From positions 1,054,001 through 1,118,000 of the forward strand of contig NZ_CP030139.2 in the NCBI RefSeq assembly GCF_003846445.2: a DNA stretch of 64,000 nucleotides, written 5' to 3'. Positions 4,608-37,019 of the stretch are shown here, in pieces; position 1 is the stretch's first letter, and each line of letters opens with the position of its first letter. Source of the stretch: Synechococcus elongatus PCC 11801 (GTDB lineage: Bacteria; Cyanobacteriota; Cyanobacteriia; Synechococcales; Synechococcaceae). The position numbers and the translations under genes were made by a program. The notes beneath the pieces are model-generated. The model made no database searches, had not been told where the DNA came from, and saw nothing but the letters and a program-made list of their open reading frames with translations.

Positions 4608-5741
4608 ATGGCGATCGTTTCTTCGAAATCCCCCGACCCAGCCGAGCGGCGATCGCCGGCCAAAACACCAACGCCTCCTACTGAGGCGCAGGCATCCTTA
4701 GTTCGACCGCAGGCGCAGGCTAACTCAGAAGACAGTCAACGCCCGGAAGACCACATTCGCCCGCAACGACTGGCGGACTACATTGGCCAGCCGGAGCTGA
4801 AGGATGTGCTGGGAATTGCGATCGCAGCAGCCCAAAGTCGTCAAGAAAGCCTTGATCACCTGCTACTTTACGGGCCGCCGGGGCTCGGTAAAACGACCAT
4901 GGCCTTGGTGCTGGCCACTGAAATGGGCGTGCAATGTCGGATCACCACAGCACCGGCGCTGGAGCGCCCCCGCGATATTGTCGGTCTGCTGGTCAACCTG
5001 CAGCCGGGCGATGTCCTATTCATTGATGAAATTCATCGCCTGCCCAAGGTCACGGAAGAAATTCTCTATCCGGCGATGGAGGACTTTCGGCTCGACATCA
5101 CCATCGGCAAGGGTCAGAGTGCCCGCACCCGCAGTATTACGCTGCAGCCCTTCACTCTTGTGGGTGCAACGACTCAGATCGGGGCGCTGACTTCGCCACT
5201 GCGCGATCGCTTTGGTTTGGTGCAACGACTGCGTTTCTACGAAGTTGAGGCCTTGACTGATATTGTGCAGCGCACGGCTCGCCTGCTGAATACGCCGATT
5301 GATCAGGCCGGAGCTGAGGAAATTGCCAAACGATCGCGGGGCACGCCGCGGATTGCCAATCGCCTGTTGCGACGGGTGCGCGACTATGCGGCTGTCAAGG
5401 CACCGGGACCGATCACAGGGGCGATCGCAGCGACGGCCTTGGAGCTCTACAACGTCGATCCCTGCGGGCTGGATTGGACTGATCGCCGCCTCTTGTCCCA
5501 CTTGATCGAGAACTTCGGTGGCGGTCCGGTCGGGCTGGAAACACTTGCGGCGGCTACCGGCGAGGATGCCCAGACGGTTGAGGAAGTCTACGAACCTTAT
5601 CTACTCCAGATTGGCTACCTCCAACGCACCCCCCGCGGACGGGTGGCCACTCCGGCAGCTTGGCGACATCTGGGCTACGAGCCGCCGCAAGCAGGCGGTC
5701 AACTGACTTTGCGGGAAGTCATGACTGAGCCAGAAGCCTGA
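4608..5741 (+). CDS. ruvB: Holliday junction branch migration helicase RuvB
   Basis: 377 residues. After a polar 40-45 residue N-terminal extension come [11 protein letters not shown], Walker [10 protein letters not shown] (89-97), Walker B LFIDEIHR (about 137-144), sensor ATTQIG, the arginine finger region SPLRDRFG and the C-terminal winged helix ([13 protein letters not shown]). It is the AAA+ motor that drives branch migration with RuvA. The extension is longer than in most bacterial RuvB proteins; a similar extension is usual in cyanobacteria as far as I recall. ruvA and ruvC are not in the window. Confidence 0.97.
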
Positions 5742-5824
5742 CAGACGGCTGCAACCGCTCCCGTGAATTTAAGTTGCGCTTGGGGATCAGTCTGCCTTGA
5801 CTGCGTCACACTGAAGGTAGAAAT

Positions 5825-5860
5825 CTCCCACCAGGTCCTACACCAAGGACAAAGGGGAGT
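5825..5860 (+). ncRNA. Candidate structured RNA hairpin after ruvB
   Basis: A compound hairpin: CTCCC at 5825-5829 pairs with GGGAG at 5855-5859, and inside it GTCCT at 5835-5839 pairs with AGGAC at 5846-5850 around loop ACACCA. It is followed at once by a strong terminator hairpin at 5861-5904. GGGG at 5854-5857 could instead pair with CCCC at 5861-5864, so alternative folds exist. A TTGACT at 5797 and TAGAAA at 5818 could be a promoter, but the 15-base spacing is short and its predicted start would cut into the outer stem. It may therefore be part of the ruvB 3' UTR, or a separate small RNA. Not matched to a named family. Confidence 0.4.
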
Positions 5861-5904
5861 CCCCCGTCGGATGGCAGCGCGAACCAGGCGGGGGAGTTTT
5901 TTTA
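5861..5904 (+). terminator. Strong rho-independent terminator after ruvB
   Basis: CCCCCG at 5861-5866 pairs with CGGGGG at 5889-5894, with an inner TGG/CCA helix, and is followed by GAG and a seven-T run. It ends + strand transcription between ruvB and the convergent gor gene. Confidence 0.8.
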
Positions 5905-5957
5905 TTTGTTGCTAATCCTGACTGCCGGAGAGGCGATCGCCCCTCCGTTCTGATCAC

Positions 5958-7298
5958 CTAGGGCATCGTCACAAACTCTTCGGCTGAGGTGGGATGTAGG
6001 GCCATCGTGGCGTCAAAGTCTGCCTTTGTCGCGCCCATCGTGACCGCGATCGCGACACTCTGCATAATCTCAGCCGCGTCCTTGCCAACCATGTGCGCCC
6101 CAAGGACGCGATCGCTCTCCGTCTCAACCACCAGCTTCATCAACACCCGTTCCTCTGCTTGGGGCAGGGTGTAGAACATCGGTCGGAAGCGACTGCGATA
6201 AACGCGAATGCGATCCTCGCCGTACTCCGCTTTGGCGGCCTCTTCACTCAGCCCGACACTGCATGCTTCTGGTTGACTGAAGACTGCTGAGGCAATGTTT
6301 TCGTAGGAAATCTGGCGGGGCTTTTGGCCAAATTCCGTATCTGCAAAAGCGCGACCTTCGGCGATCGCCACAGGGGTGAGATTGACGCGATCGGTGCAGT
6401 CACCCACGGCAAAGATATGTGGTTGGTTAGTGCGACTCCAGCCATCGACAGCAATCCGGCGACCCTCGATCGCCACACCCGCCGCATCGAGATTTAACCC
6501 TTCCAGCCACGGTTCACGGCCAGTAGCCATCAGCACTTGATCCACTGTTTGCTGGCTGCCATCGCTGTAGCTCAGTTGCAAGCCAGTTTCAGTCTTGTCG
6601 ATCCGCTCAACCGTGACGCCTGTACGGAACTGAATACCGTGCTGACTCATGCCGGTTTGCACAGCTTCCTGCAGTTCCTGATCAAAGCCATGCAAAATGC
6701 GATCGCGGCGAATAATTTGGGTGACTTCTGAGCCAAGACCGCGCAGAATCCCGGCAAACTCACAGCCAATGTAGCCGCCACCAATCACCGCAAAGCGTTG
6801 CGGCTGCTCGGGCAGATGGAACATCTCTCGTGAGGTAATCGCCAGCTCACCGCCCGGAATCGCCAGTTTGATGGGGCGTCCCCCGACTGCAATCAGAATT
6901 TTTGCCGCCGTCACTTGGTGATCGCCCACTTGCACGCGGTGCTCATCCAAGAACTGGGCATGACCGAGCAACAGCTCCACACCTGCTTTTTCCAGCAAGC
7001 TGATGTGTAGCCGACTGAGGCGGTTCACTTCCGCATCGACTGCTGCAATCAATTTGGGCCAGGAGAACTGAGGCTGGACGGCTGACCAACCGTAGGCTTC
7101 GGCGTAGTGATACTGGCTGGCAAAGCTCGAGGCATAGACCATCAACTTCTTAGGCACGCAGCCGCGAATCACGCAGGTGCCACCGACGAGGTCGGTCTCT
7201 GCGATCGCAACTTTGGCACCATAGCTGGCAGCTCGTTTTGAGGCCGCCAACCCACCAGAACCGGCACCAATAACCAAGAGGTCGTAGTCAAAACTCAT
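5958..7298 (-). CDS. gor: Glutathione reductase
   Basis: 446 residues, the usual length. FAD-binding GAGSGG lies at 11-16, the redox-active disulfide is C42/C47 in GGTCVIRGCVPKK, the NADPH-binding fold starts at GGGYIGCEFAG, and the C-terminal catalytic His is in HPTSAEE. The enzyme reduces oxidised glutathione with NADPH in the cytosol and supports defence against photo-oxidative stress. Arg/Ile in the CVIRGC segment fits the glutathione reductase branch. It is transcribed towards ruvB. Confidence 0.96.
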   Translation of the reverse strand: MSFDYDLLVIGAGSGGLAASKRAASYGAKVAIAETDLVGGTCVIRGCVPKKLMVYASSFASQYHYAEAYGWSAVQPQFSWPKLIAAVDAEVNRLSRLHISLLEKAGVELLLGHAQFLDEHRVQVGDHQVTAAKILIAVGGRPIKLAIPGGELAITSREMFHLPEQPQRFAVIGGGYIGCEFAGILRGLGSEVTQIIRRDRILHGFDQELQEAVQTGMSQHGIQFRTGVTVERIDKTETGLQLSYSDGSQQTVDQVLMATGREPWLEGLNLDAAGVAIEGRRIAVDGWSRTNQPHIFAVGDCTDRVNLTPVAIAEGRAFADTEFGQKPRQISYENIASAVFSQPEACSVGLSEEAAKAEYGEDRIRVYRSRFRPMFYTLPQAEERVLMKLVVETESDRVLGAHMVGKDAAEIMQSVAIAVTMGATKADFDATMALHPTSAEEFVTMP

Positions 7299-7396
7299 GC
7301 TGCAAAGCCCTGTTTGGCCCGAACAAAAAATGAGGGCAGCCGCGCTGGAGGTTCAAGAGCAGCTACCCTTTGCTAATCCGCTACGCGATTCGCGGT

Positions 7397-8703: not shown

Positions 8704-9381
8704 GGACGCAGCAAGGGAAATCGGTTAACGAATAGACCTTCATCCTAGTTTAACGAATGAGGGATTTGGGAATCGAGCCGCTGAGTGTGGGATGTATTGT
8801 TCTTGCTCAATCTCAAACATAAAGTGAGACTTCAACTATTCAGAGGCTATTCAGTCTTTCCCAAGCCGAGAGAAGACCGGAAGACCGTATGGGTAGGGTA
8901 GAACAATCATCACCCGAGCAAGGACAACTGACATCGTCTTTGACAGGCCGTCATTCTCGATAAATCTCGATTAAACCCACAAGCTAAAGAACGGTAGATC
9001 TATCTTTCTCTTGTCATAACGTCCTAACTTATTCGCCCTTCACCATATCCACAGCAATACTCTTTCTGTCGCACTGAGAGGTTCTGCGAGAAGGTTGGGA
9101 GCTTCCTGAGACCAGCTTTGCCAGGAGTCGGCTTCCAGTAAGTCGAAGCATGATGAGTGCGTCTCGCACACGTTTCCTCAGCAGTACCCCCACGAATAAA
9201 GGCGACGACCCCAGAAGAAGCCATCGCCAGCTATGTTCACCCGTCCAGTCCTCAAGCTTTACGCCGTCCTGGAGGTCGTCATCCGAACTATCCTCACCGT
9301 AGGAGTGCGATCGAGCTGCTGCCAAGGAATTGCAGGAATACTTCGCAGGGTTAACAGTAAGCACTACCGTCATCTACGGCT
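8704..9381. other. Gene-free gap without HIP1 sites
   Basis: 678 bases without a credible gene. Two minus-strand open frames (9024-9224 and 9029-9373) overlap and have no motif, a biased composition and no ribosome binding site. No inverted repeats of insertion-sequence type, tRNA or strong terminator were seen. The GCGATCGC octamer is missing from 8527 to 9677, unlike the flanks. A decayed gene or old rearrangement point is possible. Confidence 0.5.
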
Positions 9382-10200
9382 TCAGTGGATCTGAAAGGAT
9401 TGCTGCCCCTGCCAGATTTCACCGGGTTCTAGGTGAGGCGGTTGCTGAACTGTTGCAGCCTCCACACAAAGAAACTGCCGTTCCATACCGGGTGCGAGAT
9501 CAGAAATCTGAGCAGCACCCGCGACGCCAGGGTTCCAAACCACTGTTTCTGAAAAGCCCTCTTGGCTGATTTGGAGGTCTGGCCATGGCGGAGCCACGAG
9601 AGTCAGGAGCTGCGCTGGCGCGTCATACAAAGCATCGATCGCTGTCAGAAAGCCACGATCGCGATCTAATTCTTGAAAGCGATCGCCTGTGGTTTGCTCG
9701 GTACCCCAACGCCCTTGTAGCCCTTGTAATCGCACGGTGGATAAGTCAGGGACTGCCAAATAGCCATGCAGCGCCGCCGTAAACTGCCATGGTTGGCGAT
9801 CGCAATTTTCAACACTGAGCTGTACCTGCAACTGTTGCGATCGCAATTGCAGCTTCAGGCGCAGCCGGAAGGCTACAGGCCAAATCTGTAAGGTTTCGGC
9901 AGAGTCTCGAAGTTCTAGCTCTGCATACCCCGCTGCTGCATCAAGTTGAAGCAAGGTCCAAGCACGATCGCGGGCAAAACCATGCTTAGGTAAAGAGCCA
10001 CGATCCGAGAACTGAGGAAAGATGACCGGGATGCCACCACGAATAGCCTTGCCCAGACGATAAAGACTGCGATCGCTAAGAAAAAAACGTTCTTGACCTC
10101 CTGCGGGTTGCCACGACAACACTTGCCCGCCATAACGGCAGAAGCGAAGGCTGGCTCCCTCGGCTTTAAGCTGTAGCGGTTCGAAGGCATCGTCCATCAT
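9382..10200 (-). CDS. D-hexose-6-phosphate mutarotase (YeaD-type aldose epimerase)
   Basis: 272 residues from ATG 10200; a second ATG follows at once. The open frame continues upstream to 10329 but would overlap the PilT gene, and MMDDAFEPLQLK is a natural start. The hallmark segments GGIPVIFPQF, KHGFARDRAW (catalytic His) and the acidic WNPGV region match the glucose-6-phosphate 1-epimerase family. It interconverts alpha and beta hexose 6-phosphates for glycolysis, the pentose phosphate pathway and glycogen metabolism. It lies 40 bases downstream of the PilT-type gene on the same strand, so read-through is possible. Confidence 0.9.
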   Translation of the reverse strand: MMDDAFEPLQLKAEGASLRFCRYGGQVLSWQPAGGQERFFLSDRSLYRLGKAIRGGIPVIFPQFSDRGSLPKHGFARDRAWTLLQLDAAAGYAELELRDSAETLQIWPVAFRLRLKLQLRSQQLQVQLSVENCDRQPWQFTAALHGYLAVPDLSTVRLQGLQGRWGTEQTTGDRFQELDRDRGFLTAIDALYDAPAQLLTLVAPPWPDLQISQEGFSETVVWNPGVAGAAQISDLAPGMERQFLCVEAATVQQPPHLEPGEIWQGQQSFQIH

Positions 10201-10240
10201 TCCGACTCCCACCCTATCAGTGGAGTAACCAAACCCCTGC

Positions 10241-11356
10241 TTAGAAATCAGATTGAAAATGACTGGAAAATCCTTGGGCTTGAGCAATCCCAGTAATCCG
10301 CAGACGGCGATCGAGATCTCCAGGATCAATCGAGACTTTCAGAGCCTCTTCAACACTGAGTCGACCTTGCTCAATCTCGATCAGGAGTGCCTCATTGAGA
10401 GTTTGCATGCCCTCAATCGTGTCGAGTTCCATCAAGCGATAGGCTTCCTCTAATTCGCCACGGTTGAGATAGTCCTGAATCGCCGGCGTATTGATCAAAA
10501 CCTCTAAGATTGCCCTACGGCTACCAGTTTGGGGAGTGATCAGTTGTTGGGAAATCACTGCGACTAACAGCTCTAGGAACTGCTTGCGCGTGTCTGAGCT
10601 CTGCACCATGCCATCAAGACCAATCAAGCGATCGATCGTGCTGACTGTATTGCGAGCATGGAGTGTCCCCAAAACAAGGTGACCCGTTTGGGCAGCATAG
10701 ATAGCTGTCTTGAGCGTTTTTTGATCTCGAATCTCACCCACAAGAATGACATCTGGATCAGCCCGTAACGCAGCCCGCAGTGCCGAGGCAAAATCATGGG
10801 CATGACGACCAATTTCACGTTGGGTAATCAAACAGCGAACAGGTTCAAAAACATACTCAATAGGGTCTTCGATAGTAATAATATGGCGAGCCATGGTTTG
10901 GTTCATTTCATTAACCATGGCTGCTAGGGTAGTTGACTTACCTGATCCTGTTGGTCCCGTGACTAAAATCAGTCCTTGTTTCCGTTGAACTAACCCCGAA
11001 AGCACAGATGGAAGTTGCAGCTCAAAGAGACTCGGAATCTGTAGAGGGATTAACCGTAGCGTAATCGCTGTACCATCCAGTGTTTGAAAGCAAACGACGC
11101 GACAACGAATCAGATTTGGATAAAAAAGCGCTTCATCAATTTCCTGCGTTTCTTGAAGACGAGTACGCTGGGCTGGCGTCAAGATTTCATTGAGCCAGCT
11201 ATCCATATCACTCTCTGTGACAGCCGGTGCTTTTGGGAGCGGATACATTTGCTCGCGCAACCGAAAGTAGGGAGGATGCCCAACCCGCAGATGAATATCC
11301 GAGGCTTGTACTTGGCAAGCCTTGCGCACAAGTTGCTCAATGGTGGGCGCTGTCAT
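10241..11356 (-). CDS. pilT: PilT-type type IV pilus ATPase
   Basis: 371 residues from ATG 11356; a GTG at 11377 is an alternative. It contains an N-terminal PAS-like domain (ASDIHLRVGHPP), Walker A GPTGSGKSTT (about 134-143), Asp box IEDPIEYVF, Walker B DPDVILVGEIRD and the His box TGHLVLGTLHA. PilT ATPases power pilus retraction for twitching, phototaxis and DNA uptake. Several cyanobacteria carry more than one pilT; which copy this is cannot be told. No other pilus gene is nearby. The gene lacks GCGATCGC octamers and is slightly A/T-richer than its neighbours. Confidence 0.9.
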   Translation of the reverse strand: MTAPTIEQLVRKACQVQASDIHLRVGHPPYFRLREQMYPLPKAPAVTESDMDSWLNEILTPAQRTRLQETQEIDEALFYPNLIRCRVVCFQTLDGTAITLRLIPLQIPSLFELQLPSVLSGLVQRKQGLILVTGPTGSGKSTTLAAMVNEMNQTMARHIITIEDPIEYVFEPVRCLITQREIGRHAHDFASALRAALRADPDVILVGEIRDQKTLKTAIYAAQTGHLVLGTLHARNTVSTIDRLIGLDGMVQSSDTRKQFLELLVAVISQQLITPQTGSRRAILEVLINTPAIQDYLNRGELEEAYRLMELDTIEGMQTLNEALLIEIEQGRLSVEEALKVSIDPGDLDRRLRITGIAQAQGFSSHFQSDF

Positions 11357-11521
11357 AACCGTGCTACTTCCTGTCACAAGATGACTCGATGGCTACTTCT
11401 AGAATGTCGCTTTAAGACTCTACAAATCTAAGAAAAAAACAAAAGATTACTGCAGTGTTGATCACTGTATCAGAATCTGATACTTGGCTCTGGCGACACT
11501 GCTGGTGAGACTCACTGAGCA

Positions 11522-14500
11522 TTACTGCCCCGGAGGATGCTGGGCTAAGACTTGAGCAAGATAGCGCCCTGTGTGGGAGTGAGCATGCATTGCTACAGTC
11601 TCTGGCTCCCCGCAAACAACAATCTCGCCGCCGCGATCGCCTCCTTCGGGTCCCAGATCAATGATCCAGTCTGCACAGCGAATCACATCCAAGTTGTGCT
11701 CAATCACCACGATCGAATTGCCCTTATCCACGAGGCGCTGCATCACATCCAGCAACTTGTGGACATCGTAGAAAGAGAGACCCGTGGTCGGTTCATCAAT
11801 CAGATAGAGCGTTTTGCCGGTTGCCCGACGCGCCAGTTCCGTCGCCAGTTTGACCCGTTGGGCTTCACCACCTGAGAGCGTTGGCGCAGGCTGACCGAGA
11901 CGAACATAACCCAGACCCACATCCACCAAGGTCTGCAGGCGGCTACTGGCTTGAGGAATGTTTTCGAAAAACTGCGCCGCCTCTTCGACGGTCATGTTGA
12001 GCACGTCAGCGATCGTCTTGCCTTTGTACTTCACCTGCAGCGTTTCACGGTTATAGCGAGCACCTTTGCAGACATCGCACTGGACATAGACATCGGGCAG
12101 AAAATTCATCTCGATGACATTGACGCCTTGCCCACCACAGGCTTCACAGCGACCGCCTTTGACATTGAAGGAAAACTGCCCCGGCTGATAGCCTCGTGCT
12201 TTCGCTTCCGTCGTTGCAGCAAACACCTGCCGGATCGGATCAAAGGCACCAGTATAGGTCGCCGGATTCGATCGCGGGGTACGACCAATCGGCGATTGAT
12301 CAATCACGATCACCTTGTCGATCGCTTTTGTGCCTTTCAGCGCGGCCAGGCCTTTGGGAAAAGGAACCTTCAGCCCCAGACTGTGCTCGAGGGCTGGATG
12401 TAGGAGTTCATTGACAAGCGTGGATTTGCCGGAGCCACTCACGCCCGTGACACAGACCAGTTTGCCGAGGGGAATCTCAACATCAAGGTTTTGGAGATTG
12501 TTACGATTGGCACCTTGGAGCTGCAGACGGCGACCATTGCCCTCACGACGGCTTGCTGGAGTAGCAATACGGCGACGGCCTGAGAGATAAGCACCCGTCA
12601 AAGAGTCTTCAGCCGTCAGCAGTTGCTTTAGATGACCTTGGGCAACGATACGCCCCCCATGCACCCCTGCTCCAGGCCCAATATCAACCAGGTGGTCGGC
12701 TGCACGAATCGTATCTTCGTCATGCTCAACCACAATCAGGGTATTGCCGAGATCCCGCAGGCGAATCAGGGTATTGAGTAGGCGATCGTTATCACGTTGA
12801 TGCAGCCCAATACTGGGCTCATCCAAGACGTAGAGCACTCCGGTCAGACCCGCCCCAATTTGTGTAGCCAGGCGAATACGCTGGGCCTCACCACCCGAGA
12901 GAGTCATGGCTGGGCGATCGAGGGTCAGGTAGTCGAGTCCCACGTCGAGCAAGAAGCGCAGGCGAGCCTGAATTTCGCGCAGCACCAAATCCCCGATCTG
13001 CATTTGGCGAGCTGTCAAGAGGGGCGATCGCCCGTTAGCACCGATTAAAGCTTCAATTTTGCTCAGGCAGTCCCGCACTGAAACACTGGTGAGATCAGTG
13101 ATCCGATAGGGGCCAATCCGCACTGCCAAGGATTCCGGTTTGAGCCGTAAACCGTGGCAGACCTCGCAAGTTTGATCGACGAGATATTTTTCGAGCTTCT
13201 GTTTATAGACTTCGGAACTGGTTTCTCGATACTGACGCTCCAGGATCGGAATCACCCCCTCAAAGGGGCGATGGTAAACCTGACGATCGCGGAAGCGGGA
13301 TTCAGTTTCAACCGCGATCGCTTCACGGCTGCCGTAGAGAATCGCCTGCTGTTGATCAGGGGTCAAATCCTGCCAGCGATCGCTGATTTCGAAGCCACTG
13401 GCCTCGGCCACGCCGCAGAGCAGGTTGAAGTAGTAGCTGTGATCTTTTTCCGACCAAGGCGCGATCGCGGCATAGACTGGCAGGCTGGGATCGGGAACGA
13501 CCAGATCGGGCGAAAACGTCCGTAGGCTCCCCAGCCCGTGGCAATGGGAGCAGGCACCGTAGGGTGAGTTAAAGGAAAAGAGGCGCGGCGACAGTTCTTC
13601 CATCACAGCGCCATGCTCGGGGCAAGCAAAATTTTCGGAAAAGACAAGTTCATAGCCACTAGCAGGGCTGCCATAGGCAGCTTTTGTTTCGGCTGCGTGG
13701 CTAGCTGCTAACTCCGTCGGCAAGGTTACGACAGAGCCGCGATCGCTCGGCAAGACATCGATCACAGCAATGCCTTCGGCACGACGGAGACAGGTGGTGA
13801 GTGAATCAACGAGTCGCTCTTGAATTCCCTCTTTTTGAACAAGGCGATCGACCACAATTTCGATGGTGTGGGCGTGGTTTTTATCCAGCTCAATACTGTC
13901 ACTGAGTTCCCGCACTTCACCGTTGATCCGCACCCGCACAAAGCCTTCTGCCGCAAGGCTAGAAAGCAGTTTTTTATGGGTTCCTTTTTTACCGCGAACC
14001 ACCGGCGCCAAGATTTGAAAGCGGCTGCGATCGGGTAGTTCTGCAAGGCGATCGACCATTTGATCAATCGTTTGAGGCGCGATCGAGCGATCGCAATGGG
14101 GGCAGTGGGGTGAGCCGGCTCGCCCAAACAACAACCGCAGGTAATCGTAGATTTCCGTGACCGTACCGACCGTCGATCGTGGGTTGTGCGAAGTGGATTT
14201 TTGGTCAATGGAAATGGCTGGACTCAAGCCCTCAATCGCATCGACATCAGGCTTATCGACTTGGCCAAGGAACTGCCGAGCATAAGCAGACAGTGACTCG
14301 ACGTAGCGACGTTGCCCCTCGGCAAAAATCGTGTCAAAGGCCAAGGATGACTTGCCCGAACCGCTCACACCCGTAAACACAATTAGCTGGTTGCGCGGTA
14401 GATCGAGGTCAAGGTTCTGCAGATTATGTTGCCGCGCGCCCCGAACTCGAATTTGGTCTGTCTCGGCTGCTGGTTGACTGCCATTGCGATGAGCCAGATC

Positions 14501-14533
14501 AGATGAAGGCTCAACAGAAGCGCGCTTGGGCAT
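11522..14533 (-). CDS. uvrA: Excinuclease ABC subunit A
   Basis: 1003 residues, slightly long because about 27 residues precede the usual start ([11 protein letters not shown]). Two ABC ATPase units are present: Walker [11 protein letters not shown] (about 55-64) and [10 protein letters not shown], signatures LSGGEAQRI and LSGGEAQRV, Walker [15 protein letters not shown] and [11 protein letters not shown]. Zinc-finger cysteines are [13 protein letters not shown] and CEACGGQG with CDVCKGARY. UvrA scans DNA for damage with UvrB in nucleotide excision repair, which is important for UV-exposed phototrophs. uvrB and uvrC are not in the window. Confidence 0.97.
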
Positions 14534-14659
14534 GGGAAAGCAGCAGCAAAAATCTAGATGATTCTATCGCTTACCTTTTGAGCGGCTCGGTTGGGGTCAT
14601 CGCCCCTGCGCTAGAGTTGGGGAGCCTGAGATCAGGCGCTTTGTTTCTCAACTTTTTGC

Positions 14660-14821
14660 ATGGATTGGAAGCCAGACCTCAAGTTCACGTTTTTCCCTTC
14701 GCAACGCCACCGCGCCCTGCTGAAGCAGCTGAAGCAAGAGCTGCAAGAACGCCGCCCCGAGCCACATGGCATTCGTAGACTCCGTGTTCGTACTCGCCCC
14801 CAAGCACCGGCCAGTGCCTAG
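14660..14821 (+). CDS. Small basic protein with LLxQLKxELxE helix
   Basis: A 53-residue frame. It starts MDWKPDLKFTFF, continues with an amphipathic helix RALLKQLKQELQERR and ends in an Arg/Pro/Ala-rich tail. It resembles the start of the protein at 16093-16437 (MDW..., then [13 protein letters not shown]), and both genes share ATGGATTGG. That similarity is the main evidence that it is real. No clear Shine-Dalgarno sequence precedes it. It diverges from uvrA and converges on the GAF gene. Function unknown. Confidence 0.45.
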   Translation: MDWKPDLKFTFFPSQRHRALLKQLKQELQERRPEPHGIRRLRVRTRPQAPASA

Positions 14822-14894
14822 TTCGCCACCTTCTAGCCGTTCGCCGCGATTGAGATCGGTGTAAAGTTCTGTGCGATCGTGGCCGACGGCTGAC

Positions 14895-15473
14895 TCATAC
14901 CTTGCCGAGAAACTCACTCTCTAGCGTCTTGAGTAGCTGCACGACCACTTGCTGATCGGCTGGAGAAAAGGGAATCACTGCAGCACCGTAGTCGCCTGTC
15001 GTCAGTTTGGCTTTGCGATCGCACTTGCGGTTGATCAGCTCCACAATTCCGATCACATCTTGGCGCGGTGTCTTGAGCGGTAAGACCAAAATCGATTGGG
15101 TGCGATAGCCGGTCGCGCTGTCGATGCGGGGTTGAAAGTGATAAGGCAACCCCAACGGTAGCTGATAGACATCGGGAATATTCAACACCTCACCGGTGGT
15201 GGCTACGTACCCTGCCAAGCTATTGCGCAGGATCGGGAGAGGGCTACCTTGCAGCTGAATCTCGGGTTGCGAGAAGTTGCAGGACAAGGTGCAGATCAGT
15301 TCCGGTCCACGGAGACTCCAGCGCAGTTGAAAGATGCTGCCAGCATCCGACTGAGTCAAGTCAATCGCAGTCTCTAAGAAGAGTGCTAGAGCTGCCTCAG
15401 TACTGTGGAGAGCTGCCAAAGCCTGTCGAAACTGGACTAGTGGATTATCAGCAGGGTTGAGAGGAACCGTCAT
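14895..15473 (-). CDS. GAF-domain protein
   Basis: 192 residues from ATG 15473, with a GTG one codon upstream. One GAF domain fills the protein: LETAIDLTQSDAGSIFQL, then RNSLAGYVATTGEVLNIPDVY and SILVLPLKTPRQDVIGIVELINR. No cysteine sits at the usual chromophore site of a cyanobacteriochrome, and no kinase, cyclase or HTH domain is attached, so it is more likely a small-ligand or protein-binding sensor than a photoreceptor. hli starts 217 bases away in the opposite direction, leaving room for two divergent promoters. Confidence 0.85.
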   Translation of the reverse strand: MTVPLNPADNPLVQFRQALAALHSTEAALALFLETAIDLTQSDAGSIFQLRWSLRGPELICTLSCNFSQPEIQLQGSPLPILRNSLAGYVATTGEVLNIPDVYQLPLGLPYHFQPRIDSATGYRTQSILVLPLKTPRQDVIGIVELINRKCDRKAKLTTGDYGAAVIPFSPADQQVVVQLLKTLESEFLGKV

Positions 15474-30523: not shown

Positions 30524-30691
30524 GAACGCTGTCCTGGCAAGAGTGGGATGCCGGGACTACACGGCGATCGCGCCATGATCCCTGCCTTCATTAAATACTT
30601 GCGCGGCCCTTCGGCGCGTTAGCGGCTGACTAGGGTGGCGTTTAGCGATCGCGTTAGACTCAAACGCTGGAATCCTTATCTCGGTCGGATC

Positions 30692-36182: not shown

Positions 36183-37019
36183 ATGAGTTCAGCGGCACAA
36201 AACGCGATCGCCCTGCTAATTGAAATGGCAGAGCGCGGTGAGATCGATCCTTGGGATGTACAGGTCGTCGATGTTTTCGATCGCTTTTTGGAGCAGTTGC
36301 AGCAGCGCCCAAGTTTGACGCCTCTCACGGATTTCAGCCGCAGTCGCTACGAAGCGGATCTCTCTGAATCGGGGGAAGCTTTTCTTTATGCCTCAATTCT
36401 GATCTTGCTCAAGGCCGATGCCTTGGCGCGTTTGGAGTTTCCACCGGCGGAAGTCTTGGAAGAGATCGTCGACAGCTTTGATGAGTTGGTAGCAATGCCT
36501 CAGCTACCCGCCAAGCTTGAGCAGCAATTGCGCCGTCGAGCCGTGGCCTTGCCCCCGCAGCAGCGACGAGTCACCCTGAGCGATTTGATTGAACAACTCG
36601 AACAGGTTGCACAGTCTCTCGCAGACCCTCCGGCGCGATCGCGGCGCCGTCAACCGAAACCAGCGCCCCGTCGGCAAGCGATTCAGGCGATCGCTCACTT
36701 GGCGCATCAGGAGAATCTGGCTGAAACAGCAGCTGCCCTCGGGAATTTTCTGCAACGGCAATGGAATGCACTGCAACCTGAGAATAACTGGCTTAATTTT
36801 GAAGACCTTGTCCAGATTTGGAGCCAAACTCAAGCAGGCGATCACCATTTGGATGGCGATCGCGTCGGCGTCTTTTGGGCACTCCTCTTTCTAGCAGCCC
36901 AGTCCGTGGTGGAGTTGCAACAAGAGACCCTCTATGGTCCACTTTGGATCCGCTGTCTCACCGCGATCGCGGAACCAGCTTCTGTCCCAGCTATCGCCGT
37001 GCTTTCAGCTCCGGTCTGA
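36183..37019 (+). CDS. scpA: Segregation and condensation protein A
   Basis: 278 residues. The N-terminal LLIEMAERGEIDPWDVQVVDVFDRFLEQL (about 10-38) and the YASILILLKADALARL segment are typical of the kleisin ScpA; the middle is Arg/Pro-rich (about 155-175) and the C-terminus has the winged-helix WNALQPENNWLNFEDLVQIW. ScpA bridges SMC heads in the condensin complex for chromosome compaction and segregation. scpB and smc are not in the window. The sugar nucleotidyltransferase starts 69 bases downstream. Confidence 0.92.
   Translation: MSSAAQNAIALLIEMAERGEIDPWDVQVVDVFDRFLEQLQQRPSLTPLTDFSRSRYEADLSESGEAFLYASILILLKADALARLEFPPAEVLEEIVDSFDELVAMPQLPAKLEQQLRRRAVALPPQQRRVTLSDLIEQLEQVAQSLADPPARSRRRQPKPAPRRQAIQAIAHLAHQENLAETAAALGNFLQRQWNALQPENNWLNFEDLVQIWSQTQAGDHHLDGDRVGVFWALLFLAAQSVVELQQETLYGPLWIRCLTAIAEPASVPAIAVLSAPV

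Follow-up and report, generated by a model that had tools for sequence, protein, structure and literature searches.

Bacterial intrinsic (Rho-independent) terminators share a GC-rich hairpin followed immediately by a U-tract, placed behind a coding region. In 3'-UTR-derived small RNAs (sRNAs), such as ApcZ of Synechocystis and those of the CpxQ type, a structured 3' UTR closes with the terminator of the mRNA itself, and PMC8136909 describes a first type with its own promoter and a cleavage type that needs none. PMC13289151 reports that cyanobacteria are without Rho and that only 22% of the transcription units of PCC 7942 end at canonical intrinsic terminators, and 168 unfiltered predicted elements are given for PCC 6301 in the abstract of PMC2662882.

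The locus described here lies in the window, i.e. the whole stretch of 64,000 nucleotides analysed, from a cyanobacterial genome of 2.80 Mb. It has the hallmark of an intrinsic terminator, a GC-rich hairpin directly before a U-tract, and differs from the usual form by an extra compound hairpin directly upstream and by conservation of the whole block between two species. Like the 3'-UTR-derived sRNAs, it is positioned 3' of a coding region on the same strand, with a terminator that could be shared with the mRNA; what is shown for it here is the sequence, the predicted fold, the position and the conservation. NsiR1 (RF02399), in which a short stem likewise precedes a terminator hairpin and U-tract, was the only sRNA family returned by Rfam 15 for 5700-5980 at E up to 10, scoring 11.8 bits where the gathering threshold is 39 (E 8.8, chance level); the only other family, mir-646, was also far below threshold, and across the whole window nothing except a tRNA at 1011-1082 reached the gathering threshold. 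The element is of an ordinary kind, and in our view it probably forms a structured 3' end for ruvB mRNA, including its intrinsic terminator. The features concerned are the following:

4608-5741, + strand: ruvB, Holliday junction helicase (Pfam RuvB_N, AAA_lid_4, RuvB_C)
5811-5905, + strand: conserved block, from the alignment to the same-genus genome G001; covariance model R1 was built from it
5825-5859, + strand: compound hairpin (outer stem 5825-5829/5855-5859, inner stem 5835-5839/5846-5850, loop 5840-5845)
5860-5895, + strand: GC-rich terminator hairpin (-22.4 kcal/mol), adjoining the compound hairpin without a gap
5897-5903, + strand: seven-T tract, the U-tract of the intrinsic terminator, preceded by a single G after the terminator hairpin
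5958-7298, - strand: pyridine nucleotide-disulphide oxidoreductase gene (Pfam), named gor in an earlier annotation; convergent and outside the element
G001 C1:783802-789917 (L055 about 8803-14918): 6.1-kb gene cluster, missing at window positions 5904-5958

Predicted structure of the element

The compound hairpin begins 83 nt 3' of the ruvB stop codon on the same strand, and this place behind ruvB is common to both species. In its outer stem CTCCC (5825-5829) pairs with GGGAG (5855-5859), three of the pairs having probabilities of 0.96-0.99, and the first eight pairs of the terminator hairpin reach 0.87-1.00. A first-pass annotation of the sequence had placed a compound hairpin at 5825-5860, followed directly by a GC-rich terminator and a seven-T run; both structures are present, with the compound hairpin ending at 5859. 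Its identification of ruvB was backed by Pfam, whereas for the downstream gene Pfam goes only as far as a pyridine nucleotide-disulphide oxidoreductase, the name gor being that of the annotation.

The 86 nt from 5820 to 5905 (+ strand) folded at -37.9 kcal/mol, compared with -25.55 (sd 2.94) for dinucleotide shuffles (z -4.2), and none of 200 shuffles matched this energy. Taken alone, the terminator hairpin was equalled by 4 in 1000 shuffles and the upstream hairpin by 12 in 1000 (52 in 1000 for the G001 copy), the compound hairpin by itself being only moderately unusual. Since the fold of the spacer 5742-5819 was equalled by 684 of 1000 shuffles, the unusual structure is limited to the element. 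The terminator was not listed by a simple consensus scan of 5000-7000, which permits loops of 3-8 bases only, because its loop exceeds the limit of 8; the same scan returned one terminator-like site, on the - strand, compared with 1.8 for shuffles.

Conservation within the genus and searches beyond it

Among the 39 genomes searched as relatives, G001 was the only one of the same genus to be returned. Identity to G001 was 95.7% over 5811-5904 and only 73.9% over the adjoining 5742-5810, with a sharp beginning of the conserved block near 5811 and a difference at base 5905. The third codon positions of ruvB were 62.7% identical between the same genomes, well below the element, and across the first 40 kb the mean identity of aligned 86-nt windows of noncoding sequence was 79%; given these differences, the element is probably under selection. 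Its identity was reached by 15 of 2970 such noncoding windows, of which 11 belong to the element itself and four lie at 30524-30527, a count that is approximate, the gene calls being a simple longest-ORF selection plus one added ORF. When coding sequence was included, 3.4% of 33,948 aligned windows were equally conserved.

The four substitutions within 5811-5904 are all compatible with the predicted structure, three being at unpaired bases and one converting a U-A pair of the inner stem into U-G. This single-sided change was the sole stem variation in a covariance check that compared two distinct sequences only, and double changes numbered zero. The terminator (5860-5896) was identical in both species at 37 of 37 bases, loop included. 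This identity alone is unremarkable, since four of five other terminator-like hairpins aligned to G001, noncoding by our own gene calls, were 92-95% identical (the fifth, 69%). The conserved upstream hairpin and the identical loop, neither of which a plain terminator needs, hint at a role beyond termination; the argument is weak for the same reason, most of those other hairpins being conserved as well.

Model R1, built from two sequences and run on 388 genomes with stricter filters that lose weak matches, returned no convincing copy from the 386 cyanobacterial genomes outside the genus. The matches to G139 (E 0.0167) and G254 (E 0.0215), with E-values that are rough and per genome, are at chance level across 388 genomes, and that of G139 was discarded as it falls inside a 363-aa ORF. 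With blastn, 22 of 291 genomes of the class had a match at E <= 0.1, two of them of this genus. Eighteen of the 20 non-genus matches (all except those of G189 and G113) were checked for ORFs, and 15 were rejected as homologues, being covered by a mechanical ORF of at least 226 aa; the remaining three were L005 (ORF of 224 aa), L009 (73 aa) and L017 (70 aa). A search for the hairpin pattern in 291 genomes matched six, four of them non-genus, of which three (L023-L025) were set aside as sitting in ORFs of at least 403 aa and the fourth was G264. Strong full-length copies were thus confined to the two congeners in both the blastn (291 genomes) and the R1 (388 genomes) searches. The first-pass annotation had been unable to match the element to Yfr1, 6S, SRP RNA or tmRNA, in agreement with our finding that no Rfam family fits.

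RuvB was matched in 59 of 59 genomes, and the best 30 of the 59 loci, 28 of them non-genus, were examined. R1 did not detect the element at any of these 28, the top match (14.2 bits, E 0.28) being on the - strand of L091, and L086 offering just 15 nt behind ruvB. Because none of the 28 shows the element, ruvB has no general need of the element, which on present data appears restricted to this genus.

Two partial matches deserve separate description. The G254 match (L005 1501-1527) covers 27 nt of the terminator loop only, at 93% identity (blastn E 1.6e-4; R1 22.5 bits), and adjoins DUF and PHP genes; genes like these also come after gor in the window. It resembles synteny and is the strongest hint of a deeper relation, although chance or transfer may account for it. 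A scan of 282 genomes for the loop motif matched only the genus, G254 and G113, against three matches for a control pattern, and the G113 match (two mismatches) was rejected as lying inside a 482-aa ORF. Among 201 genomes of the family of G254, two others matched with three mismatches each, both inside ORFs (265 and 431 aa); within its genus, none of 14 loci (L059-L072) from 20 matching genomes was closer than seven mismatches. A scan of a contig collection gave five stretches and no record with a cyanobacterial name; it also failed to return G254 and the genus, and near records may have been left out of it. The G264 match (L017 1501-1560) combines 18 identical bases with a similar hairpin (CTCCC/GGGGAG) and lies upstream of an OrfB_IS605 (TnpB-like) gene. 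An origin from a transposon end found no support, G264 being the sole such match besides the genus in 388 genomes (14.7 bits, E 0.19).

Origin and possible roles of the RNA

On the reading that we favour, RNA polymerase leaving ruvB, the likely source of the transcript, would pass a poorly conserved spacer of about 80 nt, the compound hairpin and the strong intrinsic terminator, and would halt at the U-tract. We infer that this terminator ends transcription in vivo on an RNA carried by ruvB, and that the RNA is stable, as a double-hairpin 3' end should withstand 3'-to-5' exonucleases. Against this account stands that, by PMC13289151, most transcription units of PCC 7942 end otherwise than at intrinsic terminators. 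The single strand at 5820-5824, just before the hairpin, might be a site of RNase cleavage, which would free an sRNA of about 80 nt.

Two origins had been proposed in the first-pass annotation, the ruvB 3' UTR and a promoter of its own, and the former is the better option. The hexamers TTGACT (5797-5802) and TAGAAA (5818-5823) are present, but as a promoter they are doubtful: they are separated by a 15-nt spacer, the counterpart of TTGACT in G001 reads CTAACT, leaving the -35 box unconserved, and a consensus scan (spacers 16-18) found zero + strand promoters from ruvB to the hairpin. A looser promoter search gave no hexamer pair either, and in the form TANNNT only TAAGTT at 5770. Moreover, the start site near 5830 that had been suggested, at a distance of 6-8 nt from TAGAAA, contradicts the hairpin proposed with it, because it would delete the 5' arm CTCCC (5825-5829) needed for the compound hairpin. 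The absence of a conserved consensus promoter also counts against the alternative that the element is a small regulatory RNA of about 80-95 nt, released by cleavage of the ruvB 3' UTR or transcribed from a weak promoter of its own and pairing with target mRNAs. We regard this as possible but distinctly the less probable reading, although the element ranks with the best-conserved noncoding sequence in the part of the window that aligns, its discrete fold closes in a terminator, its conserved block starts sharply near 5811, and 3'-end-derived sRNAs such as ApcZ are described for cyanobacteria in PMC8136909. Three of the four substitutions, however, hit unpaired bases of the 5' hairpin, and the element is absent from the top 20 transcripts of UTEX 2973 printed in PMC6091082, judged by rough hand conversion of coordinates and gene numbers. 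Were it an sRNA, contact with targets would more likely be made by the terminator loop, which does not differ between the species, than by those changed bases. A still more tentative version, rather unlikely in our view, is that a genus-specific 3'-UTR-derived sRNA arose in this Synechococcus lineage and couples ruvB expression to other mRNAs via the invariant terminator loop. If an sRNA is released, the locus would add one more 3'-end-derived regulator in cyanobacteria. If none is, it would provide a strong-looking native terminator, a part type rarely tested in these cyanobacteria according to PMC13289151. Taken as the 3' end of ruvB mRNA, the element is a small, well-bounded case of a 3' UTR that is both structured and conserved, in a cyanobacterial model genus said to lack Rho.

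The candidate small structured RNA of the first-pass annotation thus stands as a structured, conserved element with a terminator; neither its own promoter nor the switch-like competition suggested for its two hairpins was borne out. In such an RNA switch or attenuator, GGGG at 5854-5857 would choose between the upstream stem and the 5' arm of the terminator. Both pairings can be drawn, but the alternative is hardly populated in the full RNA, where GGGG pairs with CCCC at 5861-5864 (3-base loop) or 5862-5865 (4-base loop) with probabilities of about 2e-6 and 2e-5, respectively, and forcing it gives -29.2 or -30.9 kcal/mol instead of -37.9, a cost of 8.7 or 7.0. In its favour, when nascent RNAs with ends from 5860 to 5905 were folded, 4 of the 46 lengths had the alternative in their minimum-energy fold (5878-5881, -17.1 kcal/mol); in the predicted folds it disappears once the 3' arm of the terminator is transcribed. 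The annotation's remark that no + strand gene follows proved correct, as the gene that comes next is encoded opposite to ruvB in each of the two species, leaving nothing obvious for a switch to control, and we consider this reading highly improbable. Only a little less improbable is that the element terminates the convergent gor gene, or acts in both directions. The end of gor lies 54 nt past the U-tract on the opposite strand, and the one weak - strand hairpin of the consensus scan is at 5865-5853, but on the - strand the hairpin leads only into TTTG and lacks a U-tract. In G001, furthermore, the order of ruvB and the element is kept and 6.1 kb separate the element from gor, so the element belongs with ruvB and not with gor. 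The intervening genes encode a flavoprotein, a protein with no Pfam match, a nitrilase-type hydrolase, a radical SAM protein, a GNAT acetyltransferase and an AIR synthase-like protein, a set that we take to be the Nit1C cluster, and the alignment with the window breaks at two points, immediately 3' of the U-tract and at the stop codon of gor. Least probable of all is a small protein from the ORF at 5763-5915 (+ strand, 50 aa). Its frame is open and its start codon kept in both species (GTG, ATG), and three of the four substitutions of the conserved block fall at third positions; upstream (5763-5810), however, only 1 of 11 does, an mRNA terminated at the U-tract would end short of the stop codon, which is located past it, and Pfam gave zero matches.

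Published transcripts and other conserved hairpins

Sye_sRNA1 and Sye_sRNA3 of UTEX 2973 were considered as counterparts and rejected, as PMC6091082 places them elsewhere by the same rough hand conversion; homologs of Sye_sRNA1 are mostly found behind psbD or cobB. The word ruvB is missing from the main texts, taken apart from supplementary tables, of PMC6091082, PMC3219970, PMC13289151, PMC4207680 and PMC2662882. Titles and beginnings of abstracts returned by literature searches contained nothing on this ruvB-flanking place, and we do not claim the element as unreported.

Elsewhere in the window, a strong terminator-like hairpin (-21.6 kcal/mol, T6) was observed at 7331-7369 on the - strand, between a DUF gene and gor, inside a 187-bp block (7192-7378) that is 96% identical to G001. 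Further noncoding blocks at 30524-30613 and 36204-36295 share about 94-95% identity with G001.
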